DNA from: an uncultured bacterium
GTDB taxonomy: Bacteria > Cyanobacteriota > Vampirovibrionia > Gastranaerophilales > Gastranaerophilaceae
Direction of reading: 5' to 3'
Assembly: GCA_902797965.1 (NCBI GenBank)
Contig: CADBUY010000001.1
Location: forward strand, 124,001 to 188,000
DNA: 64,000 nt
In this document: positions 3,318 through 50,351 of the stretch, in pieces
Position numbering within the stretch: the stretch's first letter is position 1
Layout: every line of letters begins with the position of its first letter
Notes under the pieces: generated by a model
Databases searched by the model: none
What the model was told of the DNA's origin: nothing
Seen by the model: the letters and a program-made list of their open reading frames with translations, nothing else
Program-made: the position numbers and the translations under genes

Positions 3318-3920
3318 TTACCCATATATTTTATGGTGGAGTTCTATCCAAAAATTGCCTTCTTGATTGAAAAAATCTTCTGACTTCCCGCTTTCTCTGT
3401 TGAAATCAGCATTAAACTCTTTGTCATAATTTTTTTTGAAAAATGTTGTTTCTCTAAAATTCTTATTAATATCTTCCCAAATCGGTGCAATATTTTCTTT
3501 CCACCAACTTTCATAAATCGGTGTGTGTTCTTCCCCGACAAGCCTGTTAAATTGTTTTTTGTTTTCGGGATCTAATATTCTTCTGAAAATATTTTTAATA
3601 GGTGCAATACTATCACTTCTTGCAGGTTCGGTGTCAATAAATGCGGTTTTTGATGATGTTATTGTTCCTCTTGCATTAGTTAATGTATTTTTTAAATATG
3701 CAACATCAGGCACAATTTCTTCTTTTGAGGGGTGTTTTTCAAACGCATCAAAAATTTTATTTGTTAGTTCCAAATCTTTTGAGGAATTATAATATGGCTT
3801 TTCGGCTTTAGTGTATCTCGCTAAATAATCCATATAAGTTTGCATGTCTTTTGTTTTTATAACAATTTTTGCACCGAAACTTGGCTGATTATTTTGAGTA
3901 TTTATCGCTTGCACTTGCAT
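3318..3920 (-). CDS. Hypothetical protein with MQVQxIN...FGAK N-terminal signature
   Basis: This 200-residue protein begins MQVQAINTQNNQPSFGAKIV, the clearest example in the window of a recurring N-terminal peptide. The body is hydrophilic and helical, rich in Lys, Asp and aromatic residues, with no signal peptide, membrane helix or enzyme motif that I recognise. Reading the minus strand, AGAAAGGAAAAATT precedes the ATG and provides a ribosome-binding site. The next minus-strand gene (4003-4596) has the same opening peptide but an unrelated body, and a dispersed CCCTCACCC repeat lies between them. The pair may be modular paralogues that share only their leader. Function unknown. Confidence 0.65.
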   Translation of the reverse strand: MQVQAINTQNNQPSFGAKIVIKTKDMQTYMDYLARYTKAEKPYYNSSKDLELTNKIFDAFEKHPSKEEIVPDVAYLKNTLTNARGTITSSKTAFIDTEPARSDSIAPIKNIFRRILDPENKKQFNRLVGEEHTPIYESWWKENIAPIWEDINKNFRETTFFKKNYDKEFNADFNRESGKSEDFFNQEGNFWIELHHKIYG

Positions 3921-4596: not shown

Positions 4597-5637
4597 AATT
4601 ATTTCCCCCTGTACTCCTTAATTTATCCTTTTTATTTACCCCAAGTATAGCATAAAATATTTAAAATTAATTACAAACATACATTACTTGCTCACACTTT
4701 CCTCTTCCAAAATAATCGTACTATCCGTAAATAATCAAACTTGCGTTATATTCAGTCTGGGAAAAGGTTTGAAACCAATAATCATACTATCCGTAAACGA
4801 GCAGAAAACGAGCAAATACGAGCAGTTTGATTATTGGCATATTAACATACTTCCAACCGCCGAAATTCAAACAGCAAGCCACTTTTCCAAAAATAATCGT
4901 ACAATCCGTTAATAATCAATCTGCTCGTTAGGATACATGGCCGCTTCCGACCTAAAAATCTAGTGTTTATAGGGGTTATAGCCATTAAACCAAATTATGC
5001 GTTCCGACCAAATTACTCGTCAGCTTACATCTAATTCTCTCTTTTTACGGAAACTCCACTACTGTCGGGAAAAATTGACATTAAAAAAAGGACCTTTTAA
5101 TAAAGTCCTTTTAAAATCTGGAGCTGGTAGTCCTCGTAGCAAAATTCTCCAAAAAAATCAATTTTATGGGAATTTTTATAAATAAATGGGAAATTTTTAT
5201 ATAAATTTTGCTTAAAAATACTCCTATATTCTGGAATATCGCCAAAAATTCCCATATTCTTAAAATGTTTTTTTTTTATTATTAAATGGGAATTTATTTA
5301 ATTCATAAACAGTGAATTAAATAAAAAATTGTAAAATACGATAATATCATTTATTTAATTTAAAATTTTATTATTTTTATATAATTTTCACTTTATCATT
5401 TTTATAACTATACAAAGCTTAAAATAAGATATATTCAGGCATATCTGTTTTCTATTAAAAATAGATAATTTTGCTATATTTTTATTAAGAAGTGTAAAAA
5501 TTTTCAAAAAAACACAAAGAAAGACCATTCAAAAGGTACATTTCCTGAAAAACGAGATAATACATAACGGCAAAATTTTATATTAAATTGGAAAAATTTA
5601 GAAAAATTTTGACCGTAGTTAAAAAAGGAGAAAAATC
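4597..5637. other. 1-kb non-coding region with direct repeats and AT-rich blocks
   Basis: No convincing gene is seen. Three copies of a 20-base repeat, AATAATCGTACTATCCGTAA and variants, start at 4711, 4777 and 4892, and the last two are associated with CGAGCA/TGCTCG words. Around 5086-5112 an AAAAGGAC...GTCCTTTT hairpin could act as a terminator. From about 5165 to 5295 the phrase ATGGGAATTTTT recurs in both orientations within extremely AT-rich DNA. The segment from 5584 to 5597 is a 14-bp repeat copied at 10110-10123 (described separately). This looks like a junction zone outside a mobile cassette. Confidence 0.6.
5584..5597. repeat. Left copy of 14-bp direct repeat flanking recombinase cassette
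   Basis: TAAATTGGAAAAAT occurs here, 41 bases before the methyltransferase start, and again exactly at 10110-10123, 72 bases after the recombinase stop. The two copies bracket the four-gene cassette, so they are candidates for the attachment-site core left by the large serine recombinase. In very AT-rich DNA a chance 14-mer cannot be excluded. Confidence 0.45.
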
Positions 5638-6942
5638 ATGGTAAAAAAAGTAAAAAACCACGAAAATCCGAATCTCGAAATTAAATATGTAGAGATTGAA
5701 AAATTAAAGAAGTATGATAAAAATGCAAAAATACATACTTCTAAACAAATTAGCAAACTTGTTTCAAGTATGAAAAAGTTTGGAGTAGTTACACCTATAT
5801 TAGTTGACAGAAATTTTACAATTATTGCAGGTCATGGCAGATTAGAGGCTCTAAAAAAGTTAAATTACAACAAAATTCCTGTGATAATGCTTGAAAACTT
5901 GTCAGATTCACAAGTTAGAGCTTATCGACTTGCAGATAATAGAATTGCAGAAGAGGCAAAATATAATAGTGATATTTTAAAAATTGAACTATCAGAACTT
6001 ACTATTAAAGATGAAATTGAAATTATCGATACTGGTTTTGATGTTGCAGAAGTAGATGCAATTATTTTAGATAATTATGAAACAAAGAAAGTAAAAACTG
6101 ATAAAGCAGATGAGCTTAAATCTTTTGAAATTGAAGAAAGAGTTCAAGTTGGTGATATTTGGCAACTTGGAAATCATTTGCTTTTGTGTGGAGATTCTAC
6201 AAATGAAATTTCATATAATGAATTATTAAAAGAAGAAAGAGCAAATTTAATTATTACAGATCCTCCTTATAACGTACCAATCAAAGGTCATGTTTGCAAA
6301 ACGGAACATGATGAATTTGCAATGGCTTCCGGAGAAATGTCAGAAGAAGAATTTGTAAAATTTAGTGAAAACTTTATGAAAAATCTAATAAAATTTTCTA
6401 AAAATGGTTCCTTGCACTATTTGTTTATCGATTGGCGAGGAGTAAATAACTTTTTAAATGCAGGAAACAAATTTTATTCTGAGCTAAAAAATATTTGTGT
6501 TTGGAACAAAATGCTAGGCGGAATGGGCAGTTTTTACAGAAGCCAACACGAATTTGTTTGTTTATTTAAAAATGGTACAAATTCACATATTAATAATATT
6601 GAACTTGGTAAAAACGGAAGATATCGTACTAATGTTTGGGATTGCAAAGGTATTAGTGCGACAAATCCTAAATCGTTAAAACTCCTAAAAATGCATCCAA
6701 CTGTGAAACCTGTAGGATTGTTGCACGAAATTATTTTAGATGCATCGTCAGCAGGTGATATTGTTCTTGATATTTTTGGAGGTTCAGGGTCAACATTACT
6801 TGCTTGCGAAAAAGCAAAGCGAAAAGCTCGCATTATAGAAATATCGCCAAAATACTGTGATTTAATTATTCATAGATATAAAGAAAATTGTAAAAAAACA
6901 GTCAAATATGTAGAAAATATTTTAAAAAAGGAGGAAAAATAA
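5638..6942 (+). CDS. ParB/Srx-like domain fused to beta-class N6-adenine DNA methyltransferase
   Basis: The 434-residue protein joins two domains. Residues about 10-110 form a ParB/sulfiredoxin-like domain (IIAGHGRLEALKKLN is the signature loop, followed by AYRLADNRIAEEA). Residues about 175-425 form a DNA methyltransferase with DPPY at 208-211 preceding the SAM-binding motif DIFGGSGST at 378-386, the motif order of the beta class that methylates adenine N6 (or cytosine N4). A KPVGL helix lies just before motif I. This fusion is common in prophages and mobile cassettes. The start has AAAAAGGAGAAAAATC upstream. It is the first gene of the cassette with the DUF5681 remnant, DUF2924 and a serine recombinase. 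It probably methylates element DNA or blocks host restriction; that role is inferred. Confidence 0.92.
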   Translation: MVKKVKNHENPNLEIKYVEIEKLKKYDKNAKIHTSKQISKLVSSMKKFGVVTPILVDRNFTIIAGHGRLEALKKLNYNKIPVIMLENLSDSQVRAYRLADNRIAEEAKYNSDILKIELSELTIKDEIEIIDTGFDVAEVDAIILDNYETKKVKTDKADELKSFEIEERVQVGDIWQLGNHLLLCGDSTNEISYNELLKEERANLIITDPPYNVPIKGHVCKTEHDEFAMASGEMSEEEFVKFSENFMKNLIKFSKNGSLHYLFIDWRGVNNFLNAGNKFYSELKNICVWNKMLGGMGSFYRSQHEFVCLFKNGTNSHINNIELGKNGRYRTNVWDCKGISATNPKSLKLLKMHPTVKPVGLLHEIILDASSAGDIVLDIFGGSGSTLLACEKAKRKARIIEISPKYCDLIIHRYKENCKKTVKYVENILKKEEK

Positions 6943-6943
6943 A

Positions 6944-7892
6944 ATGGAAGAATTCAAAAATGAACAACAATGGGAAGATGCAACAAAACAAGAACTTAAA
7001 GAAAAACAACTAAAAGAAATGTTCGGAGAGAACTACAAAAATTCCGAGTATGAGATTGGTTATAAGAAACCACCTAAGAACACTCGTTTTCAAAAAGGTA
7101 ACAAAGGGAATCCGAAAGGCAGAAAACCAAAAAAAACAATTACAACAAGAAGAAGTTGAAACTCCGGATGAATTATTTGAACGTATATATAATGAGTATA
7201 AAGAGGTTAATTATAACGGTAAATCTGTTAAAATGACAAATGCAGAAATTGCAATGCGAGGTATATTTCAAAAAATGTCACAAGGGAAGTCGGTACCTCC
7301 TGCTTTTTTAAAATTATGGAAAAATTATGAAAAAAGACAATGGGCTATTAAAAAGAAAAAATTATATCAAAAAAGAGATGAAGAAATACAAAGAATAAAA
7401 GATATTGAAGCTACAATAGCATATAAAAAAATTGGTGAAATTCAAGATTTATGTAATTTAGTATTTCATTATTCATGTGAGAGATGCCTTACTCCTGAAC
7501 AACTGGATAATAGATGGCGACCTAAAGAAAATACGGATTATGAAATTATAGCACTTGACCCATTTGCAGAAGATGATTACTGAATTGAAGAAAAAAAAGT
7601 TCATGATTTAATTCGAAGAAATTGGGATAGCTTAAAATATAACCATTCAAAAGAAGATATAGAAAATGTAACCCAAGTAGATATTGAAAAAATGAAAGCT
7701 TATACAAAAAAAATAGCAGAGGAGAATGTAAATCAAACGGAACAAGAATTAGATGAACTAATAGAAGTCATTAAACTTCATATAGCGTTTTTACAACATC
7801 AATTTGAAGGAATGTCTGATGAACAAATACAAAAATTGTTAGATTTTCATTTTAAGGTATTGGAACACTACGGAATAAAAGCTGATGAATAA
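6944..7892 (+). pseudogene. DUF5681-like gene broken by a frameshift and an in-frame TGA
   Basis: The first segment (6944-7159) encodes a helical start and the DUF5681 hallmark YEIGYKKPPKNTRFQKGNKG followed by NPKGRKP. At an eight-A tract (7129-7136) the frame must shift by +1 to continue into the second segment, where ETPDELFERI, VKMTNAEIAMRGIFQKM and further helical residues keep the family pattern. That frame then meets a TGA at 7581-7583, yet stays open in the same frame to 7892 through IEEKKVHDLIRRNWDSLKYN and a helical tail. The two lesions are best read as decay of one gene of about 315 codons. The 67-codon piece from 7692 may still be translated. DUF5681 proteins are small phage or mobile-element proteins of unknown function; the start has a strong AGGAGG. 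Confidence 0.7.
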
Positions 7893-7957
7893 TATACATA
7901 TAACTTGACAAAAAATCGACTTCGAGTGATTGATAGACCAAAGGTAAATTATAAATC

Positions 7958-8383
7958 ATGAAAACTCAAGAAAAAAAGTTTATCAAAAAGGAGCTGACTG
8001 AATTTTGGGAACAAAAATTTGGAAAAGCTCCTTTTCCTTATTTTAGTAAAGTATTTTTAGAAAAATACTTAAATTATTATAATCAGCAAGAAACCGATAC
8101 TATTTTTAATAAAAGCTGTCAAAAACAGCTCGACAAGCTAATTAAAGTATATGCGAATAGTGGAACAATTAAAAATAAGGATATTTCAAAAGCTAAAACT
8201 ATATTTTTACCAGTAGGAACAAGATTAGTAAGAGAATTTAAGGGCGAAAAATATGAAGTTTTTGTTGAAGAAAACGGATATAAATATAAAGGTGCATTAT
8301 ATGAAAGTCTTTCCTCTATTGCAAATACTATAACAGGTACAAAGTGGAATGGCAAAGTGTTTTTTGGAGTTAAGGAAAAATGA
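7958..8383 (+). CDS. DUF2924 family protein
   Basis: The 141-residue protein matches DUF2924, whose members almost always lie directly upstream of a large serine recombinase. The recognisable C-terminal part reads GTRLVREFKGEKYEVFVEEN, then YKGALYESLSSIANTITGTK and WNGKVFFGV, the family's conserved GTxLxREWxG / SLSxIAxxITGTxWxGxxFFG pattern. The N-terminal half is helical and lysine-rich. Its stop codon overlaps the ATG of the recombinase (ATGA at 8380-8383), showing translational coupling. A recombination-accessory or directionality role is plausible from this fixed association but has not been read from the sequence itself. Confidence 0.88.
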   Translation: MKTQEKKFIKKELTEFWEQKFGKAPFPYFSKVFLEKYLNYYNQQETDTIFNKSCQKQLDKLIKVYANSGTIKNKDISKAKTIFLPVGTRLVREFKGEKYEVFVEENGYKYKGALYESLSSIANTITGTKWNGKVFFGVKEK

Positions 8384-10038
8384 CGGATAAAAACTTAACT
8401 AATAAAAAATCAAAAATCAGATGTGCAATTTATACTCGAAAGTCTTGCGAAGAGGGATTAGAGCAGAATTTTAATTCACTTGATGCACAACGTGAAGCAT
8501 GCGAATCGTATATTAAATCACAACAACACGAAGGTTGGATTTTGATTGAAAAACAGTATAATGATGGTGGTTTTTCTGGAGGAAATCTTGAACGACCTGC
8601 ACTAAAAGAATTATTTAAAGATATCGCAGATGATAAAATTGATATAGTTGTGGTTTATAAAGTCGATAGACTTACTCGCTCATTGCTTGATTTTGCAAAA
8701 ATTGTAGAACTATTTGACTCGCATAAAGCAAGTTTTGTTTCAATTACACAAAATTTCAATACAACAACATCAATGGGGAGATTAACATTAAATATTTTGT
8801 TATCATTTGCTCAATTTGAAAGAGAAGTAACAGGAGAAAGGATTAGGGATAAAATTGCAGCCTCTAAGAAAAAAGGTATGTGGATGGGAGGCAGAGTTCC
8901 GATAGGTTATGTAAAAGAAAATAAAAAACTTTTAGTTAGTGAAACTGATGCAAAAACTGTACAACTAATATTTAGAAAATATCTTGATTTAAAAAGTGTA
9001 CCAAAATTAAAAGAATATTTATACGAACATAATATTAAATCAAAAACGGATAAACATTTTGAAAAAGGACAACTATATCATATTTTACAAAACCAAGTTT
9101 ATATAGGAAAAATAAAACATAAAAATAATTTTTATGACGGAGAACATCAAGCTATAATTAGTGAAGAAGTTTTTAATAATGCACAAAAATTATTATCAGA
9201 TAATATTAACAATAATAATAATCAAAAAATGACAACGAATTCTTTATTGGCAGGAAAACTTTTTGATGATAATGACAATCGAATGTCCCCAAGTCATAGT
9301 AATACTAGAAAGAAAAAATATAGATATTATGTTAGTTTAGCAATAACAAAATTTAATAAAGTTAATGCCGGTACGATTTCAAAACTCCCTGCAAACGAAA
9401 TAGAAAAATTTGTTACTGACGAAATAAAAAATTATTTTTTAGATATAAATTTACAATCATATATAAATGATTTTCCTATAAAATTGCAAAATGAAGTTAT
9501 AAATAAATTAAAAAATAATGAAATTTTTACTACTCATGTAATTAGAGATTTTATAGAAAAAATTATTGTTTCAAGAGAATACATTGAATTAGTGTTACGG
9601 CAGAATAAAATACAAGAATTTTTACATTCACTTTTCGGTAGAAAAGTTACAGAAGAAAAAATAAATAATGAATTTATAACTATAAGAAAAGATATCAGAA
9701 TTTCTACAGGAAGTTCAAAAGGATGTAATGTTTTAATTCTTAAAAACGGAGAAAATAAAGAATCTTATGTTAATAAAAATTTGATAAAAGCAATAGTTAG
9801 AAGTTTTTACTGGCATGAACTTCTTTTAAGCGGAAAAGTTAAAAATACAAAAGATATACAAAAATTAGAAAATTTAAAAGACAACAGTTATATAAAACAA
9901 GTTTTAAATTTACGATTTCTATCTCCCAAAATTGTAGAAAATATTATACAGGGTACTCAGCCAAAAGATTTAACTGTTTCAAAATTATTTAATATTAAAA
10001 CATATAATTGGAAAGAACAGGAAAAATATATTAATTAA
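8380..10038 (+). CDS. Large serine recombinase, cassette-encoded (DUF2924-associated type)
   Basis: The 552-residue protein has an N-terminal resolvase catalytic domain (AIYTRKSCEEGLEQNFNSLD with nucleophile Ser22, then VVVYKVDRLTRSLLDF and the E helix FAQFEREVTGERIRDKI). A Recombinase domain follows (about 170-270), then a LLAGKLFDDNDNRMSPSHSN segment where other members have a zinc ribbon. The C-terminal 200 residues are lysine-rich and helical. Such enzymes cut and rejoin attP/attB with a two-base overlap, inserting and excising the element. The DUF2924 neighbour and upstream methyltransferase match a mobile cassette architecture best known from Alphaproteobacteria, so transfer between phyla is likely. 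All catalytic motifs are intact. Confidence 0.93.
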   Translation: MTDKNLTNKKSKIRCAIYTRKSCEEGLEQNFNSLDAQREACESYIKSQQHEGWILIEKQYNDGGFSGGNLERPALKELFKDIADDKIDIVVVYKVDRLTRSLLDFAKIVELFDSHKASFVSITQNFNTTTSMGRLTLNILLSFAQFEREVTGERIRDKIAASKKKGMWMGGRVPIGYVKENKKLLVSETDAKTVQLIFRKYLDLKSVPKLKEYLYEHNIKSKTDKHFEKGQLYHILQNQVYIGKIKHKNNFYDGEHQAIISEEVFNNAQKLLSDNINNNNNQKMTTNSLLAGKLFDDNDNRMSPSHSNTRKKKYRYYVSLAITKFNKVNAGTISKLPANEIEKFVTDEIKNYFLDINLQSYINDFPIKLQNEVINKLKNNEIFTTHVIRDFIEKIIVSREYIELVLRQNKIQEFLHSLFGRKVTEEKINNEFITIRKDIRISTGSSKGCNVLILKNGENKESYVNKNLIKAIVRSFYWHELLLSGKVKNTKDIQKLENLKDNSYIKQVLNLRFLSPKIVENIIQGTQPKDLTVSKLFNIKTYNWKEQEKYIN

Positions 10039-27862: not shown

Positions 27863-29590
27863 ATGAGCTTAACATCTAATATTAATGAAAAAGCCAATCT
27901 TATTTGGGCTATTGCTGATAAATTAACAGGGGTATATAAACCGCACGAATACGGAAAAGTAATTCTTCCTTTAACTGTTATAAGAAGGTTTGATTGTATC
28001 TTGGCTGATACAAAGCAGGCTGTTTTGGATAAACACAACTCTATGGCTGAAGATTTTCCTATGCGTGAACAGTTTTTGAAGAAAGCGTCAGGTTATGAAT
28101 TTTATAATACAAGCAAATACACTTTTGAAAGTTTATTAGATGATGCTAACAACATTGAGGCTAATTTTAAAAACTACTTAAACGGTTTTTCAGAAAATGT
28201 AAGACAGATTATTGAAAAGTTTGATTTTAATAACGAAATAACGCGTTTGGCTGATAAAAACCTTCTTTATATTGTTATTCAGGAATTTACAACTCCTAAA
28301 GCAGATTTACACCCTGATAAAATCTCTAATTTAGAGATGGGTTATATCTTTGAAGAGATTATCCGCAGATTTTCAGAAGCTCATAACGAAGATGCAGGAC
28401 AGCACTACACTCCAAGAGAAGTTATAGAACTTATGGTAAACATTTTGTTTACGAATGATAATGACATTTTAACAAGTAATGTTGCTAAGACTATTTATGA
28501 CCCTGCTTGTGGAACAGGGGGGATGCTATCGGTTGCAGAAGATTATTTGAAAAAGTTAAATAGTTCAGCAACATTGTTACCATTCGGACAGGAAATCAAT
28601 GACGAAACGTTTGCTATTTGTAAAGCGGATATGCTTATTAAAGGCAATGATGCTGATAAAATCCGCAATGGTAATACATTGTCTGATGACAACTTTAAGA
28701 ACGAAAAATTTGACTATATACTTTCAAATCCACCATTTGGCAGAGAATGGAAAAACGATAAAAAAGCTGTTGAAGATGAGGCAAAATTAGGTGAGGGCGG
28801 AAGATTTGGTGCAGGACTTCCTGCTGTTGGTGATGGTCAAATGCTTTTCTTGCAAACGGCTATTCATAAAATGAAAGATATTACACAGGGTGGAAGTAAA
28901 ATTGCCATTATTCATAACGGCTCACCACTATTTACTGGTGATGCTGATTCAGGCCCATCTAATATCAGAAAGTATATTTTGGAACATGATTTACTTGAAG
29001 CTATTATTGCTTTACCGAATGACATTTTTTACAATACAGGCATAGCAACGTATATTTGGGTACTTTCTAACAAGAAAGAAAATCGCAGAAAAGGTAAAGT
29101 TCAACTGATTAATGCAAACAATATGTTTGAAAAACGCCGTAAATCTTTGGGTAACAAGAGAAATGATATTCCAAAGCATTATATAGATGAGATTACAAGA
29201 ATCTATGCTGATTTTACTCAAAATGAAGTTAGTAAAATCTTTGATACGGAAGATTTTGGGTATTCAAAAATCGTTGTTGAACGACCTGAAAAAGATGAAA
29301 ACGGCAACCCTGTGTTAAAGAGCGGTAAGCCTGTCGCAGATACTTCTTTAAGAGATACAGAAAATGTACCTTTAAAAGAGGATATTCAAGAATACTTCAA
29401 ACGAGAAGTTCTTCCTTATGCTCCTGATGCATGGATAGATGAGAAGAAAACTAAGGTCGGTTATGAAATACCGTTTACAAGATATTTCTACAAATACGTT
29501 CCGCCAAAACCTTCTGAGGATATTATGGCAGAGATAAAAGAACTTGAAAAATCTCTTGACGGAGTGTTAGAGGGGATATTTAATGACTAA
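27863..29590 (+). CDS. hsdM: Type I restriction-modification system methyltransferase subunit
   Basis: The 575-residue protein has the HsdM N-terminal domain (residues about 1-150) and an N6-adenine methyltransferase domain with SAM-binding DPACGTGG at 213-220 and catalytic NPPF at 289-292 (ILSNPPFGREW). Late residues YFKREVLPYAPDAWIDEKKT and VGYEIPFTRYFYKYVPP are typical of this subfamily. In complex with HsdS it methylates a bipartite site. GCAGGAGGTTGT precedes the ATG. It is the first gene of a twelve-gene operon and is overlapped at its 3' end by the RhuM-Fic gene. A dyad-controlled promoter at 27758-27791 should drive the operon. Confidence 0.96.
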   Translation: MSLTSNINEKANLIWAIADKLTGVYKPHEYGKVILPLTVIRRFDCILADTKQAVLDKHNSMAEDFPMREQFLKKASGYEFYNTSKYTFESLLDDANNIEANFKNYLNGFSENVRQIIEKFDFNNEITRLADKNLLYIVIQEFTTPKADLHPDKISNLEMGYIFEEIIRRFSEAHNEDAGQHYTPREVIELMVNILFTNDNDILTSNVAKTIYDPACGTGGMLSVAEDYLKKLNSSATLLPFGQEINDETFAICKADMLIKGNDADKIRNGNTLSDDNFKNEKFDYILSNPPFGREWKNDKKAVEDEAKLGEGGRFGAGLPAVGDGQMLFLQTAIHKMKDITQGGSKIAIIHNGSPLFTGDADSGPSNIRKYILEHDLLEAIIALPNDIFYNTGIATYIWVLSNKKENRRKGKVQLINANNMFEKRRKSLGNKRNDIPKHYIDEITRIYADFTQNEVSKIFDTEDFGYSKIVVERPEKDENGNPVLKSGKPVADTSLRDTENVPLKEDIQEYFKREVLPYAPDAWIDEKKTKVGYEIPFTRYFYKYVPPKPSEDIMAEIKELEKSLDGVLEGIFND

Positions 29591-31316: not shown

Positions 31317-32028
31317 CAATAATGAGCTTAAAACCGAAAACTATTATTTAGCTTACCTTGATATTTTAGGTACAAAAGATATTGTTTCAAAAGATACGGA
31401 TGATAAGTATTTGCATAAATTAGATAAAATATATAAGAAAGCAATAAATGATAAAAAGTTTATAAATGAACATAACAATAAAGATATTTTTGCAAAAATT
31501 TTTTCTGACAATATTCTTTTAGGTATAAAACTGCACAAGGATGAAAAATTTAATAAACCAAAATTGGAAAAGTTAATCAATTTAGCAGGTTTAATACAAT
31601 TAAATACATTAAAAGAAGGATACTTATTACGAGGAGCAATTGTAAGAGGTGATTTTTGTGATACAGGAATTTTTGTACATGGAAAAGCATTAATTGAAGC
31701 AGTAAACTTGGAAGAACATGTTGCAATATATCCGAGAATAATAATTCAGAGAAAAAATGTTTTTTTGACGAATCCTGCATATATAACAAGAGATAGTGAT
31801 GATTATTATTATGTAAACAGTTATTTCTTTAGCTATGAGAAAAATTTTGGAATATTCAGAAATAAGTTACTTGCGAACTTAAAGAAAGAAAAAAACGAAA
31901 AAGTAAAACAAAAAATTATGTGGTTCATAAATTATCATAATGATTATTTTAAAAATAATCCTGTTGACAATATTCCAGATACAATACCCAAAATTACATT
32001 AGAGGATATATTAGATGCTACAAAGTGA
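31309..32028 (+). CDS. Class III nucleotide cyclase-like protein 2
   Basis: This 239-residue paralogue of the preceding protein keeps the same framework at the same positions: YLAYLDILGTKD with Asp18, AKIFSDNILLG with Asp67, LLRGAIVRGDF and HGKALIEAVNLEEHVAIYPR, ending with IMWFINYHNDYFK. Pairwise identity is moderate, so the duplication is old, and conservation of both aspartates in both copies argues for retained function, perhaps as a heterodimer (class III cyclases place the active site between two chains). Its ATG overlaps the first gene by eight bases with GGAGGTGTAA in front, and hsdS overlaps its 3' end by 14 bases. The pair is therefore tightly coupled. Confidence 0.6.
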   Translation: MDNNNELKTENYYLAYLDILGTKDIVSKDTDDKYLHKLDKIYKKAINDKKFINEHNNKDIFAKIFSDNILLGIKLHKDEKFNKPKLEKLINLAGLIQLNTLKEGYLLRGAIVRGDFCDTGIFVHGKALIEAVNLEEHVAIYPRIIIQRKNVFLTNPAYITRDSDDYYYVNSYFFSYEKNFGIFRNKLLANLKKEKNEKVKQKIMWFINYHNDYFKNNPVDNIPDTIPKITLEDILDATK

Positions 32029-36135: not shown

Positions 36136-39089
36136 ATGCAAGATACTTTATTAAAAGAAAAGAATTTTGAAGAAGCGATTGAGAATTACCTTATAACCAA
36201 AGGTGGTTATGAAAAAGGTGTCCCTGAACATTTAAACAGGGCAAATGCTCTTGATGAGGATACTTTTTTAAAATTTATTCAAACAACCCAACCGAGAGAA
36301 TGGGAAAAGCATTGCAGGAATTATCCTACCAATCCTGAACAGGCTCTTTTAAGAAGGTTTCAAGATGAAGTATCTGCTACAAATATATTATGGGTATTAA
36401 GACACGGTTTTGTTGATAGAGGCGTAAAATTCTACCCTTGTTTTTTCAAGCCTGAAACAACATTAAACCCTGAAACAGTTGAAAGATATAACCAAAATAT
36501 TTTGCATTGCACTCGTCAGATGAAGTTTTCTCTGAAAGATGAAAGAAGTATTGATATAGTCCTTTTACTTAACGGTATTCCTGTTGTATCAATGGAGCTT
36601 AAAAACCAATTCACAGGTCAGGATGTTTCAAATGCCATAAATCAATACAAGTTTGACCGTGCTACAAGAGATAAGATGTTTGAGTTTAAACAAAGAGTAT
36701 TGGTGCATTTTGCCGTTGATTTATACAACGTATTTATGACAACAAGATTGCAAGGTCCAAGCACATATTTCTTGCCGTTCAACCAAGGTTCAAACGGTGC
36801 AGGAAATGTTGGCGGTAAAGGTAATCCAATTGTAGAAGATGATTATATGACGTCTTATTTGTGGAAAAGAGTTTTAACTAAAGATTCTTTAATGGAAATA
36901 CTCCACAAATATATGCACTTACAGGCAAAAGACGGAAAACAAACAATGATTTTCCCACGTTATCACCAATTAGATGTTGTAACAAAACTTCTTGCTGATG
37001 TAAAAGAAAACGGCAGCGGTAAAAACTATTTAATCCAGCATAGTGCAGGTAGTGGTAAATCAAATTCTATTGCTTGGCTTGCTCACAGATTACAAAGTTT
37101 GCACGACAAAAATGATGAAGTTATTTTTAATTCCGTAATCGTTGTAACAGACAGAAAAATTTTAGACAGTCAATTACAAGAAACTATCTACCAATTTGAC
37201 CACGTTGACGGAGTTGTAAGACGTGTTACTGATGGTTCCGCAGGGTTAAAGCAAGCACTCAATGACGGTGCAAAAATAATTATAACAACACTTCAAAAGT
37301 TCCCATACATTTATCAGGATGTTGAAGCAACAGGAAAAAGATATGCTGTAATAGTAGATGAAGCTCACTCATCTCAAACAGGTCAAGCTGCAAAGAAATT
37401 GAAAGCAGCTTTAGGTGATACAGAAGAAGTATTAGAACAATATGCAAGAGAAGAAGCCGAAGAAGAAAGCAGACAAGAAGATTACGAAGATAATTTAGTG
37501 CGTGAATTATCAACTCATGGTATGCATAAAAACATATCATTCTTTGCGTTCACTGCAACACCAAAGAACAAAACACTTCAGCTATTCGGAGAAAGACAAG
37601 AAAATGGGAATTACAGAGCATTTCATATTTATTCCATGAGGCAAGCAATAGAAGAAGGGTTTATTTTAGACGTTCTTCAAAATTACACAACTTATAAACA
37701 GTATTATCAAATAGCAAAAAAATTGAGGGTGATCCTGAATACGACAAAGCAAAAGGCGCAAGAGCTGTTTCAAGGTTTGAAAGTTTACACCCTCATAACA
37801 TTGCTCAAAAAACTGCTATCATAATTGAACACTTTAGAGAGATTACCAAAAATAAGATTGACGGCAGAGCAAAAGCAATGGTTGTTACAGCGTCAAGATT
37901 ACACGCAGTAAGATATTTGTTTGAATTTAGAAGATATATTCAAGAACACAACTACAATGATTTAGATGTGTTAGTAGCTTTCTCAGGAAATGTTTCTGAT
38001 AACGGACAAGAGTGGACAGAAGAAAAAATTAACGGTATAAAAGAAACTCAGCTAAAAAAAGAGTTCCACGAAAACTTTGATATGCTTATCGTTGCTGAAA
38101 AATATCAAACAGGATTTGATGAACCGTTATTACATACAATGTTTGTAGATAAAAAGTTAAACGGAGTAAAAGCCGTACAAACATTATCAAGGTTAAATAG
38201 AACAATGAAAGGCAAAGAAGATACATTCGTTCTTGATTTTGCCAACACTCAAGAAGAAATTAGAAAATCATTTCAACCATTTTACGAAGCAACAGTACTT
38301 GAAGAAGAAACTGATCCAAATTTAATTTATACAATAAAACGTCAATTAGAAGATTTTCACGTCTATCAGCAAAATGAAGTGGAAACTTTTGCTAAGAAGT
38401 TTTATCAGAAAACTATTCCAACTCTTAGCGGACTTTCTTCACTTCTTGAACCTGCAAAACAAAGATACGAAGTTTTAGAAGACAAAAAGAAAGATGAGTT
38501 TAAATCTCTAATTCATTCTTTTAACAGAATCTATTCATTCATTATACAGGTTTGCAGAATGTTTGATAAAGATATGCAAAAGTTATACATTTATACAAAA
38601 TATCTTGCAACAGTTCTTCCAAAAGATAATGATGAAAAAGTTAATCTGAATGATGAATTATTACTTGAATACTACAAACTTCAAAAAACAGCAGATGGAA
38701 AAATTACGTTAGAAAATGCAGAAGGTCTCATTCCTCCTGTTAGTGGTGCAGGTGGTGCTGGTTCTAATAAGGAAAAAGATGCTCTGTCAGAGATTATAGA
38801 GAAATTTAACAAAAAATTCGGAACAGAGTTTACAGAACAAGATAAAGTATTGGCACAACTAAGAGCTGACATGATGAAAGATACAAAAATCGTAAATTCA
38901 GCAAAAATTGGAGACAGAACAGCCTATGATACATTATCAGATAAAGGTTTTGATCAGGCATTAATGGAACGCTACGAAGAAAATGAAAACTTCTTTAAAG
39001 ATATATTGAGCGATAAAGACAAACTAAGATTTATCAAAAAATTGTTCTTGGAAGATTTGTATAATGAGTTAAGGCATATGGATAAATAG
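36136..39089 (+). pseudogene. hsdR: Type I restriction endonuclease subunit, one-base frameshift in an A tract
   Basis: The first frame (36136-37824) encodes the nuclease domain (SIDIVLLLNGIPVVSMELKN) and the motor Walker A (QHSAGSGKSNSIAW, near residue 300) and DEAH-like motif (IVDEAHSSQTG). At the A7 tract 37716-37722 translation leaves the family frame. Adding one A restores IAKKIEGDPEYDKAKGARAV and joins smoothly to the second frame, which is open from there to 39089 and carries the remaining helicase motifs (VAEKYQTGFDEPLLHTMFVD, LSRLNRTMKGKEDTFVLDFA) and the C-terminal domain. Everything else is intact, so this is a single slippage event: a true phase-off state, a null mutation or an assembly error. 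The second part has no obvious start of its own before 37878. Confidence 0.9.
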
Positions 39090-44557: not shown

Positions 44558-46096
44558 ATGTACGCACTAAACAGCAAACAAGAATTACAAGCTAAAGTTG
44601 CAGTAATACTAGGTAGAGTATCATCTAAACCGCAAGAAGATGGATATTCCATTGACGGACAAGTAAATAAGGGTAGAGATTATTGTGAACGCAAAGGTTT
44701 AAAAATTATTCAAGAGTACACATTTCATGAAAGCTCTACACGAGGCAATCGTCCGAAGTTCTTTGAAATGATTAATTTTATAAAAAAGCAAAAAGAACCA
44801 GTTGCTTTAATATGTGATAAAGTGGACAGGCTACAACGTGGATTTAAAGAAGCTCCTATTATTGAAGAATTGCGTAAGAGTGGTAAACTTGAGATACATT
44901 TAATTACCGAAAATCAAGTATTACATAAGAACTCTACTAGCCAAGACCTCATGGTATATAACATGTGGGTTATGATGGCACAAAATTATACAGACTGTTT
45001 GTCTGACAATATTAAGCGTTCTCATAATGAAATGATAAGCCAAGGTCGTGTTTTTACTAAGTTACGAGTAGGATATAAACGTAGTGGAGAGAAAAACAAG
45101 GATATTATAATTGATGAAAGCTGTGCATTTCTTATAAGAAAACTTTTTGTAGAATATTCAACAGGGTTGTATTCTATTGATGAAATACATACTAAAGCTA
45201 AAGAATGGGGATTAAAAAATCGTAAAACAGGGAAACCATTTGATAGAAGTAATATTGGTAAAATCCTTCAAGATGAATTTTATATCGGAATTGAAGTTAT
45301 CAACAAGGGAACAAAAAATGAAATCCAATATAAACACATTTATCCTCACCTAATATCAGATGAATTATTTGATAAGTGTAGGAGAGTAAGGGAAGGAAAA
45401 GGGAATAACCATTCCAACAAAATTAAAGATTATAGACATGCTTTATTTAAAGGTATGATAAAATGCAAGAATTGTGGTTGTACTGTTACTCCCGAACCAC
45501 CTAAAAAGGGTAAGTACATATACCTTAGACCGAAACCGAAGAATGGCTGTAATTGTAAGCAGATAAATGAAGAAGTAGCAAATAAACTTGTTGAAGAGGT
45601 ACTAAAATCCATGACAATACCAGAAGATGTATTGAGTATGTATCTGGACAGATTAAAACAACGATTTGATACACAGCAACAAGAAGAAACTATACAGCAA
45701 CAGTTGAAAGAAAAAGATTTAGAGAATGCCAGAAAGCGTCTGGATAGACTTGTTGACTTATATCTTGCAGAAGATATAGATAAAGAAACCTACGATAAGA
45801 AGAAGGCTGAACTTACTCGTGAAGTTAGTTTACTTGAAAGTCAGATAACCAATTTTAACAACAATTCCGAAGAAGTACATATTAGCATGAAACTCTTGTT
45901 GGAAGTGGTTTCTAGGATATATGAGCTCTATGCGAGTTCGGAAATTGATAGAAAACGTAAGATTTTAAAATTGGTATTTCCGAACTTTTGGTTGGATGGG
46001 CGAAACCTAAGCTATGACATAAAAAAGCCCTTTGATGAGTTCATCAAAAAGGCTTATTATCTCTTAAATTGGAGGTTAGGAGATTCGAACTCCTGA
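44558..46096 (+). CDS. Large serine recombinase at tRNA-Ala boundary
   Basis: The 512-residue protein has the serine recombinase catalytic domain (VAVILGRVSSKPQEDGYSID with Ser22, ICDKVDRLQRGFKEAPIIEE, NIKRSHNEMISQGRVFTKLR), a Recombinase domain, a zinc ribbon (MIKCKNCGCTVTPEPPKKGK with a later CNCK), and a coiled coil (residues about 380-440). Its last codons (NWRLGDSNS) are encoded by the 3' end of tRNA-Ala and its TGA lies at 46094-46096 inside the T-arm. The element therefore inserted at the 3' end of this tRNA and supplies the restored tRNA end. Serine recombinases use tRNA targets less often than tyrosine integrases. AAAGGAGTAAATT precedes the ATG. Confidence 0.93.
   Translation: MYALNSKQELQAKVAVILGRVSSKPQEDGYSIDGQVNKGRDYCERKGLKIIQEYTFHESSTRGNRPKFFEMINFIKKQKEPVALICDKVDRLQRGFKEAPIIEELRKSGKLEIHLITENQVLHKNSTSQDLMVYNMWVMMAQNYTDCLSDNIKRSHNEMISQGRVFTKLRVGYKRSGEKNKDIIIDESCAFLIRKLFVEYSTGLYSIDEIHTKAKEWGLKNRKTGKPFDRSNIGKILQDEFYIGIEVINKGTKNEIQYKHIYPHLISDELFDKCRRVREGKGNNHSNKIKDYRHALFKGMIKCKNCGCTVTPEPPKKGKYIYLRPKPKNGCNCKQINEEVANKLVEEVLKSMTIPEDVLSMYLDRLKQRFDTQQQEETIQQQLKEKDLENARKRLDRLVDLYLAEDIDKETYDKKKAELTREVSLLESQITNFNNNSEEVHISMKLLLEVVSRIYELYASSEIDRKRKILKLVFPNFWLDGRNLSYDIKKPFDEFIKKAYYLLNWRLGDSNS
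46021..46055 (-). terminator. Terminator of tRNA-Ala, antisense to recombinase 3' end
   Basis: On the minus strand, AAGCC and GGCTT arms enclose a perfect 8-bp TTTGATGA/TCATCAAA stem and are followed by six T residues. It lies 15 bases beyond the tRNA 3' end and inside the coding sequence of the recombinase, so one DNA stretch encodes both a protein tail and the tRNA terminator. Confidence 0.75.
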
Positions 46097-46142
46097 CCCT
46101 CTGCGTGCAAAGCAGATGCTCTACCAGCTGAGCTAAACCCCC
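46070..46142 (-). tRNA. tRNA-Ala (anticodon TGC)
   Basis: The 73-nt minus-strand sequence folds as a standard cloverleaf: acceptor GGGGGTT/AACCTCC containing the G3-U70 wobble that identifies alanine tRNAs, D-arm GCTC-AGCTGGTA-GAGC, anticodon arm with TGC, T-arm AGGAG-TTCGAAT-CTCCT and discriminator A73. CCA is not encoded. The first 27 bases at its low-coordinate side (the tRNA 3' end) overlap the recombinase gene, marking this as the attachment site of the adjacent element. Confidence 0.97.
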
Positions 46143-46192
46143 ACGAGGTTTATCAACATTATTAATAATACATGCTAATTTTTTTTTGTAAA

Positions 46193-46201
46193 GGGGGGGG
46201 G
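46193..46201 (+). repeat. Nine-G homopolymer upstream of HTH-array gene
   Basis: A run of nine G residues lies 58 bases before the ATG at 46260, directly left of ATTATATT, which could be a -10 region. Such a tract is very unlikely in this AT-rich DNA and is prone to length change, so it could tune promoter spacing. Confidence 0.55.
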
Positions 46202-46259
46202 ATTATATTTTGTCTTATTAAAAATATCAAAAAAAATTTTTTTGTGTTTTAAATACAAT

Positions 46260-49124
46260 ATGCGAGTAGATTCTATTAATAGCAAATATCATATTATTTT
46301 TAATGCAAAAAAAGTTCCGAATCGCATTACGCAAATTGCAGGAACAGAGCTTGTTAATAATCTTGTATCTTTAGACAACCAAATAAAAGATTATCTTTTG
46401 GAAATTATTCAAAAAGAGATTCCTTTAAGTCAGGTTAAAATGGCTGAAACAATTGGATTATCGCATTCTTCTTTAAGTAAAAGAATTAGAAGCAATGATG
46501 AATTAAAATCTCTTTGGGATAAAATCTATAAAACAAATCTTGCTGTATCACAGGATATAAATACCAAGATTAAAATAATTCTTGAAAATGCCATTATAAC
46601 AGGTGAAGTTATTGGAGGAAAAGATATTGCCCAAAGAGTCGGAATTAATACGGCTGCATGTTTTAGAAGAATAAGAGATGATAAAATTTTAAAAGTATTA
46701 TTTGCAGGAATTAATCACGTCCCAACAAGTCAAAAAACAGAAGAATCAAAACTAATAGATGAGAAAATAAAAGAGTTTTTAGAAAATGCTCTTTTAGAAA
46801 ATAAAAAAGTCTATTTGCGTGATGTGGCGAAGATTACAGGGCTTAGCGTACAGCAATCATCAGATAGAATTGCAAGAACTCCTGCTCTAAAAGCTATTTG
46901 GGAAAAATTTGCACACTTTTCTATTCCTAAGAAAAACAGTGAATCAAAAAGAAAAGACGTCATTGTAAAAACCGTAATCAAAGATGCAATAAAAGAAAAT
47001 AAACCTATATCTCTTTCATATCTTGCAGAGCAAACAGGGTTTACTGAATCTGATTGCCGTCATAGGATCGATAGAAACGCTGATATAAAAGAGCTTTGGC
47101 AAAGTGCAATACATCTTGGAAATACAAATTCAACACGCAATGTAATGTCAAAAGAAGAAAAAGCGAAATTGATTGAAGATATTGAATTAATTATAAAAAA
47201 AGCTTATGAAGAAGGGGAAAAGCTATCTTTTAAAGATATAGAAGTGAGTCTAAACGGAAGAGCAACAAAAAAACAAGTTCATCATACAATATACAAAACA
47301 CAAAAACTTAAAGAATTGTGGGATAGGATTGAACATTTTGGAGGTGCAAATGAAGTCAGAAAAAAATATACTGATAATCTATCTTTAAAAATAAAAAATA
47401 TACTAAATTCGTCTATTGAAACTCACACTCCTTTAATATTTGAAGATATTGCAAAAGAATTAGATATAACCATTTCTCAAATCAAGCATTTAATATATGA
47501 AAATACAGAATTAAAAGCATTGTGGAATAAAATTCCGCAAAGGAATACATATAAAGAACCACAAACCTCCATTCTTAAAACAAACAAGGTCAGGGATATT
47601 ATAGAAAACCTGATTGCTTCAAAGCGGCAAGTTAACTTAAAAGAAGTTGCAAAAGAAGTAGGAATGAAGTTAACAGCGCTTAGGGATAAAATTAAAAGAA
47701 CTCCCGAGCTTAAAGATCTTTGGAGTTTAGTTACCAAAAGAACCATTTCAAAAGAGTCTGAAGAGATAAATGATAAAATAATAAATGTTTTGGAAAACGC
47801 TATTAAAACTAAAACTTATATGAATGCCAATGATGTTGCAAAACAAGCAGGAATTACCTATCCAACTTGCGTTCAGCGGCTTCAAAAAAGTAAAGGTATA
47901 TTAAACGAATTATGGCAACAGGTTTTGGGCTTTAAAAAAGATGATGCAAAAGCTATAGACAGCAGCATAAAACAAATTCTTGAAAAGCATTTGAATACTA
48001 GAACTGCTATCAGTTTAGGAAAACTGTCAGAAGAATTAGGAATTTCTAAAAATACTATTTTATATAGATTTAAACTATCTGATGAGTTAAAAGCTCTTTG
48101 GAATAAAACAAGTAATATAAATTCAGAAACTCTCAAAGAGTTTACCGGTTTAAAAGAAAAAAAATACGATTATAAAGATATAATGAAAGAGCTTAATATC
48201 ACAGAAGAGCGATTTGACGAACTAAATGTTAAATACGACAAAATAAAATCAATTCTTAATTTATACAAAAATAAAGATATTTCTCAAGAAGAGATATTGG
48301 ATTGGTTAGTATTAAGCAAACGCGAACTGGAACTTGGGGTAAATGAAATATTTAACAAAATAGGGTATGATTCAAAAACTACAAGATACAAAGGAGATAA
48401 CGGTATTGATGTTATTGCAAAAAAAGACGGAAAAACGACAATAGTAGAATGTATGCATAATATTTCAAGACCGACTGAAATAGATGAACTCCTTGCTCTT
48501 CAAGGCAACAAACATTATTATAATGCTGATAGCGTAATTTATGTTGCTTCGTCGGGTTTATTTAGTAACGCAAATATATTTGCTGATGAATTTAGAGAAA
48601 AATTCAAAGTTCTTGATTTAGTTGACATTATTAAGCTTGCAAAAAAATACAAAATTGATATCAAGAATTTAAAAGAAGGAGAAAATATAAAATCCGTAAA
48701 AATTCCTGAATATATCGGGAATTGGTTCTTACCTTCAGCAATGAGCGAAGAAGAAACAAAAAAATGGCGAAGTCTTAAACCGAAAGCTTTTGAAAGGCTT
48801 GTCACCGACTTTTTTACTCGTCAGGGTTATGCAGTTAAAAAAACTGATGAACTAGATTTAGAGGGATATTATTTGATAAATAAAGGTGGAAACAAAAGCA
48901 TAATCAAATGTTATAATAAAACAAAAGCACCACATATAGATGATATTAAAGCCCTTTATGGCTTAAGAGATTTTTATAAAACAAATGATGTTATCTTGAT
49001 TGGACCAAGCAGTATATCATCACAAAGTAAAGATTTTATAGATACAGTTAATAAAAAAGAGAATCAAGACAGCTTTAAGTTAATGAGTTTGGATGAGGTA
49101 GTAAAAAAAATAAACCTCTTCTAA
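46260..49124 (+). CDS. Tandem HTH-repeat protein with two C-terminal Mrr-like domains
   Basis: The 954-residue protein starts MRVDSINSKYHIIFNAKKVP (the lineage leader pattern), then carries about nine repeats of 60-70 residues from residue 39 to about 620. Each repeat has a helix, a helix-turn-helix (for example IAQRVGINTAACFRRIRDD or VAKITGLSVQQSSDRIART) and a closing LK-x-LW motif. Two domains follow: the first has GDNGID at 712-717 and IVECMHN, matching Mrr-type nucleases except that the catalytic Lys after ExC is Met; the second (GYAVKKTDELDLEGYY, then SIIKCYNK) keeps the fold but has Lys in place of the catalytic Glu. It may bind long DNA stretches repeat by repeat. A TTG at 46242 is an alternative start; there is no Shine-Dalgarno sequence. 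It is divergent from tRNA-Ala. Confidence 0.8.
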   Translation: MRVDSINSKYHIIFNAKKVPNRITQIAGTELVNNLVSLDNQIKDYLLEIIQKEIPLSQVKMAETIGLSHSSLSKRIRSNDELKSLWDKIYKTNLAVSQDINTKIKIILENAIITGEVIGGKDIAQRVGINTAACFRRIRDDKILKVLFAGINHVPTSQKTEESKLIDEKIKEFLENALLENKKVYLRDVAKITGLSVQQSSDRIARTPALKAIWEKFAHFSIPKKNSESKRKDVIVKTVIKDAIKENKPISLSYLAEQTGFTESDCRHRIDRNADIKELWQSAIHLGNTNSTRNVMSKEEKAKLIEDIELIIKKAYEEGEKLSFKDIEVSLNGRATKKQVHHTIYKTQKLKELWDRIEHFGGANEVRKKYTDNLSLKIKNILNSSIETHTPLIFEDIAKELDITISQIKHLIYENTELKALWNKIPQRNTYKEPQTSILKTNKVRDIIENLIASKRQVNLKEVAKEVGMKLTALRDKIKRTPELKDLWSLVTKRTISKESEEINDKIINVLENAIKTKTYMNANDVAKQAGITYPTCVQRLQKSKGILNELWQQVLGFKKDDAKAIDSSIKQILEKHLNTRTAISLGKLSEELGISKNTILYRFKLSDELKALWNKTSNINSETLKEFTGLKEKKYDYKDIMKELNITEERFDELNVKYDKIKSILNLYKNKDISQEEILDWLVLSKRELELGVNEIFNKIGYDSKTTRYKGDNGIDVIAKKDGKTTIVECMHNISRPTEIDELLALQGNKHYYNADSVIYVASSGLFSNANIFADEFREKFKVLDLVDIIKLAKKYKIDIKNLKEGENIKSVKIPEYIGNWFLPSAMSEEETKKWRSLKPKAFERLVTDFFTRQGYAVKKTDELDLEGYYLINKGGNKSIIKCYNKTKAPHIDDIKALYGLRDFYKTNDVILIGPSSISSQSKDFIDTVNKKENQDSFKLMSLDEVVKKINLF

Positions 49125-49127
49125 AAA

Positions 49128-50351
49128 TTATAGTTTTTTAACCATCTCTTCCAGACAGATTTTAACATGTGCGTAATTCAATCCACCCTGCATATACGCA
49201 GCATAAGGTACTCTCATTGGTCCGTCTGCTGAAAGTTCAATTGTTGAACCCTCAATAAAAGTTCCTCCTGCCATAATTACCTTATCTTCATATCCGGGAA
49301 TATATTCCGGAATCGGTGTTACATACCCATTAACAGGTGATAATGACTGAATTGTTCTGCAAAATTCTTCCAACTTCTCTGCGTCACCAAATATAATATT
49401 TTGAATAATATCCGTCCTTTTTTCATCATGTCTTGGGATAGAATTAAATCCTATATCCTCAAAAACTTTTGCGGCTAAAACTGCTCCTTTTACTGCTTCT
49501 GATACAATAGAGGGTGCCATAAATAATCCTTGAAAAATCAGTCTGTGCTGATTAAACATAGCACCGCCCTCTGAACCAATCCCAGGGGCAGTTAATCTTG
49601 TAGCAGCACGTTCAACCAATTTACATTTACCCCCTATATAACCTCCGGCTTCAACTATTCCTCCTCCAGGGTTTTTAATCAAAGAACCGCCGATAAGGTC
49701 TGCACCAACTTCCAATGGTTCTCTTTTATCGACAAATTCTCCGTAACAGTTATCCACAAAACAAATACATTCAGGATTTTTAGATTTAACTATTTTGCAA
49801 ATTCTTTCAATATCATCAATTGAAAGAGACTTTCTTGTTGAATACCCTTTAGAACGTTGAATAAGAACCATTGTAACAGTTTTGTCAATCATTTTTTCTA
49901 AGGATTCATAATCGACATCTGAACCGTTCAAAAGCGGGACTTCGTCATATAAAATGCCTTGTCCTATAAGTGATGAGCGTTTTGTTTCTTCATCACCCGC
50001 TGTACCTATAACTTCTTGCATTGTATCATAAGGCGCTCCGGCTACAGAAACTAATTTATCACCATGTCTTAAATTCCCAAACAATGCACAGGCAAGAGTG
50101 TGTGTTCCTGATGCAAAATGTATTCTCACAAGTGCCTTTTCTGCCTTAAAAACTTGCGCAAAAGTCTTATCTAAGACTTCTCTTCCCAAATCATCATGAC
50201 CGTATCCTGAAACAGTATAAAAGTGTTCAGGTGCAACTCTGTTGTCATAGAATGCCTCTAAAACTTTTCTCTGGTTATAATCTCTAATCTCGTTTATATA
50301 ATCAAATTCTTTTTCTAATTCTTTTTCTGCTTTTTTAAAATCGTAAAACAT
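49128..50351 (-). CDS. Aluminium-resistance/methionine gamma-lyase family PLP enzyme
   Basis: The 407-residue protein belongs to the PLP-dependent family annotated as aluminium resistance or methionine gamma-lyase-like. Recognisable blocks are FYTVSGYGHDDLGREVLDKT, VRIHFASGTHTLACALFGNL, the ECICFVDNCYGEFVDKREPL segment with PLP-binding Asp, and the lysine motif GGSLIKNPGGGIVEAGGYIG. The family is common in Firmicutes and cyanobacterial relatives, and the true substrate is not settled. The gene converges on the HTH-array gene with a three-base gap. The start at 50351 has no strong ribosome-binding site, and a copy of the CCCTCACCC repeat lies just upstream of it. Confidence 0.9.
   Translation of the reverse strand: MFYDFKKAEKELEKEFDYINEIRDYNQRKVLEAFYDNRVAPEHFYTVSGYGHDDLGREVLDKTFAQVFKAEKALVRIHFASGTHTLACALFGNLRHGDKLVSVAGAPYDTMQEVIGTAGDEETKRSSLIGQGILYDEVPLLNGSDVDYESLEKMIDKTVTMVLIQRSKGYSTRKSLSIDDIERICKIVKSKNPECICFVDNCYGEFVDKREPLEVGADLIGGSLIKNPGGGIVEAGGYIGGKCKLVERAATRLTAPGIGSEGGAMFNQHRLIFQGLFMAPSIVSEAVKGAVLAAKVFEDIGFNSIPRHDEKRTDIIQNIIFGDAEKLEEFCRTIQSLSPVNGYVTPIPEYIPGYEDKVIMAGGTFIEGSTIELSADGPMRVPYAAYMQGGLNYAHVKICLEEMVKKL

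Follow-up and report, generated by a model that had tools for sequence, protein, structure and literature searches.

What does a protein do that places a long array of helix-turn-helix (HTH) repeats in front of two domains of restriction endonuclease (REase) type, and does it still cut DNA? The question is raised by one gene, at 46260..49124 (+), in a stretch of 64,000 nucleotides from an uncultured member of the Gastranaerophilales (assembly GCA_902797965.1, contig CADBUY010000001.1, positions 124,001 to 188,000; the whole of this stretch is called the window below). The 954-aa product is a real, unusual and conserved protein, most likely DNA-binding, derived from an Mrr-type enzyme and no longer cutting. 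The role which we tentatively put first is that of an accessory, non-cleaving DNA-binding protein, derived from an Mrr-type (type IV-like) restriction enzyme, that would recognise foreign DNA and silence or block it. The ATG at 46260 is favoured as start over the TTG at 46242 because the homologues begin there. The parts of the gene are:

46260..49124, +, HTH-array / double Mrr-like protein, 954 aa (open reading frame and homologues)
46260..46349, +, N-terminal 30 residues with an F-x-A-K motif (FNAK); predicted local distance difference test score (pLDDT) below 50; F-x-A/G in 5/5 family members
46365..46532, +, HTH repeat 1 (this and the following repeats by profile and AlphaFold)
46542..46718, +, HTH repeat 2
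46734..46919, +, HTH repeat 3
46932..47114, +, HTH repeat 4
47151..47339, +, HTH repeat 5, the weakest, with a two-residue insertion in the turn
47361..47540, +, HTH repeat 6
47559..47738, +, HTH repeat 7, the most basic (net charge +7)
47751..47933, +, HTH repeat 8
47934..48113, +, HTH repeat 9
48120..48311, +, helical linker (helices in the model); a tenth HTH at residues 638-665 is degenerate and marginal (E 0.013)
48312..48650, +, domain 1, Mrr_cat PD-(D/E)XK fold with D717 and E730 retained and M732 in place of the catalytic K (Pfam, VIA, motif comparison)
48453..48455, +, codon of M732, the catalytic lysine position (K in 38/39 related domains, 0/5 here)
48744..49121, +, domain 2, a homologue of domain 1 with a fully degenerate REase fold (PF22722, hhalign, fold matches to the RPB5 jaw and Can2)

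The original prediction, made by reading the window, was of about nine HTH repeats, and nine are found. A profile derived from two more distant homologues only, with the 954-aa protein and its closest homologue left out, detects each of them at E values of 3.9e-9 to 1.1e-20 between residues 36 and 618 (36-91, 95-153, 159-220, 225-285, 298-360, 368-427, 434-493, 498-558 and 559-618), with a unit of about 62 aa; the tenth is degenerate and marginal. The core of the repeats is conserved; column 45, in the recognition helix, holds R or K in 40 of 47 repeats, and the repeats end in L-x-x-L-W. The closing LKxLW motif that had been pointed out is thus real, its L and W being at least 90% conserved. 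The array is basic, with a net charge of +25 and an isoelectric point of 9.5. Many overlapping HTH families in Pfam match the protein; by sequence the repeats resemble the Lrp/AsnC-type HTH (PF13404, 59.6 bits summed over the repeats, cut-off 27), and the repeat profile matches LrpA at E 5.7e-4. The best sequence match of the repeats in the Protein Data Bank, 8vd6, is a computationally designed repeat protein whose score is the sum of five weak hits, and it was rejected as a relative. Matches to the PADLOC model mad1 and to PHROG Ren were read as generic HTH similarity.

The AlphaFold model of the whole chain, computed from a five-sequence input, has a mean pLDDT of 75.8, with low confidence in the first ~30-31 residues. 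In the model each repeat consists of a long helix, then a helix-turn-helix and then a short helix, which supports the assignment of the repeats as HTH folds. The path of the array in space is not fixed by the model, because the predicted template modelling score (pTM) of the whole chain is only 0.42. Modelled alone, the C-terminal third (pLDDT 86.5, pTM 0.82) forms a helical part and two REase folds, as was expected from the sequence. Domain 1 is matched by Pfam Mrr_cat (PF04471) at residues 685-793 (E 5.1e-24, 85.1 bits, cut-off 21) and in structure, by VIA comparison, by AspBHI, MspJI and AF1548 at Z 12.6-13.3. Domain 2 is matched by NA-iREase1 (PF22722) at residues 844-946 (E 1e-10, 42 bits, cut-off 27); its structural matches are Can2 nucleases and the RPB5 jaw at Z about 8, a value that may also stem from a common arrangement. 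By hhalign, domains 1 and 2 are homologues (probability 99.2). A search of solved structures by sequence with the C-terminus gave no match, and Foldseek matches of this part to carboxylases were discarded with a root-mean-square deviation of about 18-20.

The motif of domain 1 is D717 (GID), E730 and M732 (VECM), so the reading of GDNGID as kept and of the ExK lysine as replaced was correct, and it extends to the family: the lysine position is M, M, M, V and I in the five full-length members, against K in 38/39 related Mrr domains. The aspartate is present in 38/39 of these related domains and in 5/5 members, and the position that is Q in 37/39 of them is E in 5/5. L692, R709, Y710, E730, N734 and L745 are invariant in the family and rare or absent in the 39 domains. 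For domain 2 (IKCY) the replacement of the glutamate had been noted; it is confirmed, but the loss is wider, since the aspartate position is gone too and D, E and K are all lost. Invariant residues across the five members make up 35% of domain 1, 13% of domain 2 and 6% of the array. For the closest pair the ratio of nonsynonymous to synonymous substitutions (dN/dS) amounts to 0.22 for domain 1 and to 0.35 for the array, with dS at 0.9-1.5; the ratio of domain 2 is unusable, dS being too saturated. The family is under purifying selection and, because aspartate and glutamate are invariant, new invariant residues have appeared and domain 1 is the most conserved part, the pocket of domain 1 is remodelled and maintained and has not simply decayed.

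Five full-length members make up the family. They come from 4 of 65 genomes in a single genus of Gastranaerophilales from the rumen, and one of the four genomes carries two divergent copies. The other four members are 50, 42, 31 and 27% identical to the 954-aa protein and have, in the same order, 9, 11, 9 and 9 repeats. The proposed search for relatives with another repeat number was thus successful (9, 9, 11, 9 and 9 in the five members), and every homologue has an array of at least nine repeats, none a single one. In the 1090-aa homologue two additional repeats stand between positions 4 and 5. The repeats are closest to their own positional counterparts in 9/9 cases in the closest homologue and in 8/9 in the third, and the array is therefore old and its order maintained. 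A scan of 84,980 species genomes with the five-row alignment recovered the other four members, one from a Candidatus Gastranaerophilales rumen co-assembly and three loci from RUG assemblies, and one further match to the Mrr domain only. Scans of GTDB genomes and of IMG/VR with the single protein found no relative, viral contigs gave Mrr-domain matches with the five-row alignment and no full-length relative, and phage and plasmid collections gave no match. Outside the genus, a sample of 382 genomes from the whole class has matches to the C-terminal domains only, besides the sibling families described below and a few isolated HTH matches.

The patchy occurrence goes together with an insertion of the gene on its own. 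The neighbours at the site are:

46069..46143, -, tRNA-Ala(TGC), to the left of the insertion; in relatives it adjoins the lyase gene
49128..50351, -, methionine gamma-lyase, to the right of the insertion (Pfam 6.7e-178)
44558-46096, serine recombinase, overlapping the tRNA-Ala 3' end from the other side

In two relatives (L148, L152) the tRNA-Ala directly adjoins the methionine gamma-lyase. The homology of L148 extends up to the base matching window position 46196 and resumes 51 bases on at the base matching 49124, and L152 is similar. Compared with these, the insertion (46196-49124) is clean, about 2.93 kb long, consists of one gene and lies in a conserved intergenic region; because the relatives show empty sites we regard the gene as a lone insertion. 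No recognisable mobility gene of its own is seen in it. The homologues lie at different chromosomal sites, judged from neighbour genes named by eye. It had been suggested that the gene lies beside a tRNA attachment site. The tRNA-Ala is indeed adjacent, but the site belongs to the neighbouring element, whose integrase lies across the tRNA, and the gene is a separate insertion. The homology of the window to relatives stops at the tRNA-Ala. A probable mobile element, with the serine recombinase at the tRNA 3' end, lies at about 22400-46096. Between 27.9 and 37.8 kb it contains the genes of a type I restriction-modification system (HsdM at 27863, HsdS at 32015, an HsdR-like gene at 36136) and a RhuM/Fic protein at 29583. 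Its left end was not found, and a search of the window for a duplicate of the tRNA 3' end (att duplicate) was negative.

Does the array read DNA repeat by repeat? This part of the original prediction, which compared the array in its logic to modular DNA-binding arrays, is not supported for the 954-aa protein. Between the two closest homologues 14/54 exposed recognition-helix positions are identical (26%), against about 59/189 other surface positions (about 31%) and 82/117 core positions (70%). The recognition-helix surface is thus no more variable than the rest of the surface, hypervariable positions are not detected, and the order of the repeats is conserved and not shuffled. Since the recognition helices diverge like the other surface, neither a conserved target nor a variable code is supported, while DNA binding as such is still compatible; a code like that of the transcription activator-like effectors (TALEs) is not supported in the 954-aa protein.

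The idea of a code is kept alive by a sibling, L099, whose nuclease is intact and whose repeats are near-identical but for the recognition helix. The related proteins are:

L099 (genome G280, another genus of the same family of bacteria), 5241-7406, -, intact Mrr, seven HTH repeats (of a different type) and, at the end, a degenerate REase-like part
L100 (G280), 5731-8964, -, 1078 aa, intact Mrr and seven tandem degenerate REase-like repeats
L222 (G280), 5283-6842, -, intact Mrr, then tandem degenerate REase-like repeats
L016 (own genome, contig C2), 5412-16688, 3759 aa, about 13 repeats of the same HTH type among other unknown regions

The Mrr domain of L099 is 38% identical to domain 1, and in a tree of Mrr domains L099 and L100 group with the 954-aa family (support 0.865, one divergent sequence being included in the group). 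The repeats of L099 are nearly identical and differ mainly in and around the recognition helix, the entropy being highest in columns 24, 26-30, 33 and 34. The proportion of nonsynonymous differences (pN) is 0.455 there and 0.111 in the scaffold. This matches the TALE-type pattern of a conserved scaffold with hypervariable positions; dN/dS is 0.46 with dS near saturation, and positive selection on these helices is not demonstrated. A far-reaching idea would be that HTH arrays fused to Mrr-type domains evolve in the clade as modular DNA readers, in which residues of the recognition helix varying from repeat to repeat would give the specificity, and in which the nuclease would be either live (L099, as programmable array-guided cutters) or switched off (the 954-aa protein, as non-cutting binders). 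We consider it quite doubtful. A gene adjoining that of L099 codes for 722 aa with a kinase-like glycine-rich loop, seen by eye, and no Pfam match. L224, L225 and L226, from three genomes of one other genus in the same bacterial family, have 340-390 aa with about seven HTH repeats and nothing else recognisable. Partial relatives of the 3759-aa protein are found in G014 (at least 2667 aa, at the contig end), and shorter ones with a different C-terminus in G030, G406 and contig C17 of the own genome.

The reading which we put first, that of an accessory DNA-binding protein which no longer cleaves, would work as follows. The nine Lrp/AsnC-type units would form a long, basic, flexible arm gripping a long stretch of DNA, probably with moderate or low specificity. 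Domain 1, with the metal-binding aspartate kept, a glutamate in place of the glutamine of its active relatives, the lysine gone and invariants of its own gained, would bind DNA, perhaps together with a metal ion, but would not cut it. Domain 2, the dead REase fold, may be a structural or DNA-clamping partner. The likely role would be to recognise foreign DNA within the bacterium and silence or block it. We base this on nine repeats detected beyond chance, on the predicted HTH and REase folds, on the basic array and on a lysine lost in 5/5 members against 1/39 relatives. The occurrence in few genomes at different sites, with an empty site in relatives, also argues for it, and so do the pairing of an intact Mrr domain with an HTH array in the sibling and weak PADLOC defence matches (of the 954-aa protein to PDC-S02, and of one homologue to a model for type IV methyl-directed enzymes). 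Several observations weigh against it: the type I restriction-modification genes belong to the other element, across the tRNA, conserved defence-gene neighbours at the homologues and a methyltransferase partner were not found, and the recognition helices show no selection apart from the rest of the surface, which would equally be expected of protein-binding or spacer repeats.

The last point leads to the view that the repeats are a protein-interaction or spacer scaffold with no DNA contact, the function being carried by the dead REase domains. Among the large parts of the protein the array has the lowest conservation, and its recognition helices are not better conserved than other surface positions; but the array is basic, its HTH core is canonical and the R or K of the recognition helix is conserved, and we find this view very unlikely. 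A more serious question is whether domain 1 could be a still-active nuclease with a rebuilt site, in which the metal would be held by D717 and E730, with K722, K725, R709 or a partner subunit standing in for the lysine. The aspartate and glutamate are kept, the usual glutamine has become glutamate in all members, R709 and Y710 are new invariants, and K722 and K725 are both invariant in the family, with K725 close to the motif in sequence. The PD-(D/E)XK superfamily has documented cases in which the lysine has migrated or been replaced (PMC1189080). The documented replacements are, however, asparagine, glutamine or acidic residues, whereas those found here are hydrophobic and not fixed; K722 is frequent in active relatives as well, and K725 is in the same turn. 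We judge an active enzyme to be unlikely.

A chromosomal regulator or nucleoid-type protein, whose array would act on AT-rich or repeated DNA and set transcription in the manner of Cbp1, is likewise improbable. It should be noted that the same bacterial family also has arrays with about seven HTH repeats and no nuclease domain (L224, L225, L226), that L225 has a sub-threshold similarity to Cbp1, and that Cbp1 works on arrays of clustered regularly interspaced short palindromic repeats (CRISPR) and makes chromatin-like structures (PMC10883916). The very patchy occurrence and the lone insertion at differing sites are unlike a core regulator, and it is the nuclease-derived domain, rather than the array, that is most strongly conserved. 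Another proposal is an effector which would be secreted, enter a second cell and bind the DNA inside it, as a functional counterpart of the TAL effectors. All five members start with a short, probably disordered segment bearing F-x-A/G, a similar N-terminal motif is found on other unusual proteins of the clade, and the same class also contains Vampirovibrio chlorellavorus, a predator whose secretion systems have been a subject of discussion (PMC4451040). As an export signal the motif was rejected: it stands above the shuffled sequences in the discovery set only (13 proteins against 4 expected), the fresh set giving 9 against 3.7, within the shuffled range, with both statistics drawn from parts of the genome. 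Such an effector is hardly to be expected. The recurrent pattern, which resembles M-x-I-x-P-I...[S/T/N]-F-x-[A/G]-K and is only modestly enriched, occurs on unrelated proteins of the clade, in the window at 3318-3920 (-) and 46260, and in L125 at 4280, L128 at 1302, L134 at 14625, L137 at 8787 and L177 at 11248.

How does a non-cleaving, Mrr-derived binder compare with known systems? Domain 1 is a clear relative of the Mrr-type (type IV) enzymes of PF04471 in sequence and fold, but these have a catalytic D...(Q/E)xK which the family lacks, and they lack the nine HTH repeats in front and the dead domain behind. Domain 2 lies above the curated cut-off of PF22722, the NACHT-associated inactive restriction endonuclease, an inactive REase fold; the link to NACHT is missing, there being no nucleoside triphosphatase among the best 25 Pfam matches of the protein, and the part outside the REase folds consists of HTH repeats. 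COG1395 (PAB2104) has predicted active and inactive PD-(D/E)XK domains fused with one HTH, and COG4127 (STM4490) an Mrr domain with a putative inactivated nuclease domain (PMC1189080); by this description they differ in having at most one HTH each, one nuclease domain predicted to be active, and no array. The modification-dependent endonucleases in which PD-(D/E)XK is fused to a winged-helix reader cleave modified DNA (PMC11037411); they share the fusion, but are cleaving enzymes with no long reader array. Cbp1, a CRISPR repeat-binding protein (PMC10883916), shares the tandem HTH, which in Cbp1 bind DNA, but its array is short and has no nuclease fold; the NCBIfam model NF040595 for Cbp1 does not match the 954-aa protein and is sub-threshold for L099 and L225. 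The Lrp/AsnC regulators share the AsnC-type HTH, and in place of their C-terminal ligand-binding (RAM) domain two REase folds are found here. The RPB5 jaw, a degenerate REase-like fold, matches domains 1 and 2 at Z about 8-9; RPB5 is an RNA polymerase subunit and a sequence relationship is not shown.

TAL effectors and TALE-like proteins share the long tandem array of helical units, but their repeats are two-helix units of about 34 aa, against 62-74 aa with a long helix, an HTH and a short helix here, and their hypervariable base-reading positions have no detected equivalent in the 954-aa protein. A TALE-inspired screen covered repeats of 30-43 residues only (PMC5472282) and would therefore miss these HTH arrays. 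A literature search that covered few subscription journals and preprints turned up no description of REase domains linked to a long HTH array. If the array of the 954-aa protein binds DNA, it would be among the longest natural HTH arrays known, and the pair formed by the intact L099 and the inactivated 954-aa family would show the origin of nuclease-guided and of binding-only versions. The near-identical repeats of L099 make the existence of a readable DNA code in HTH arrays directly testable.
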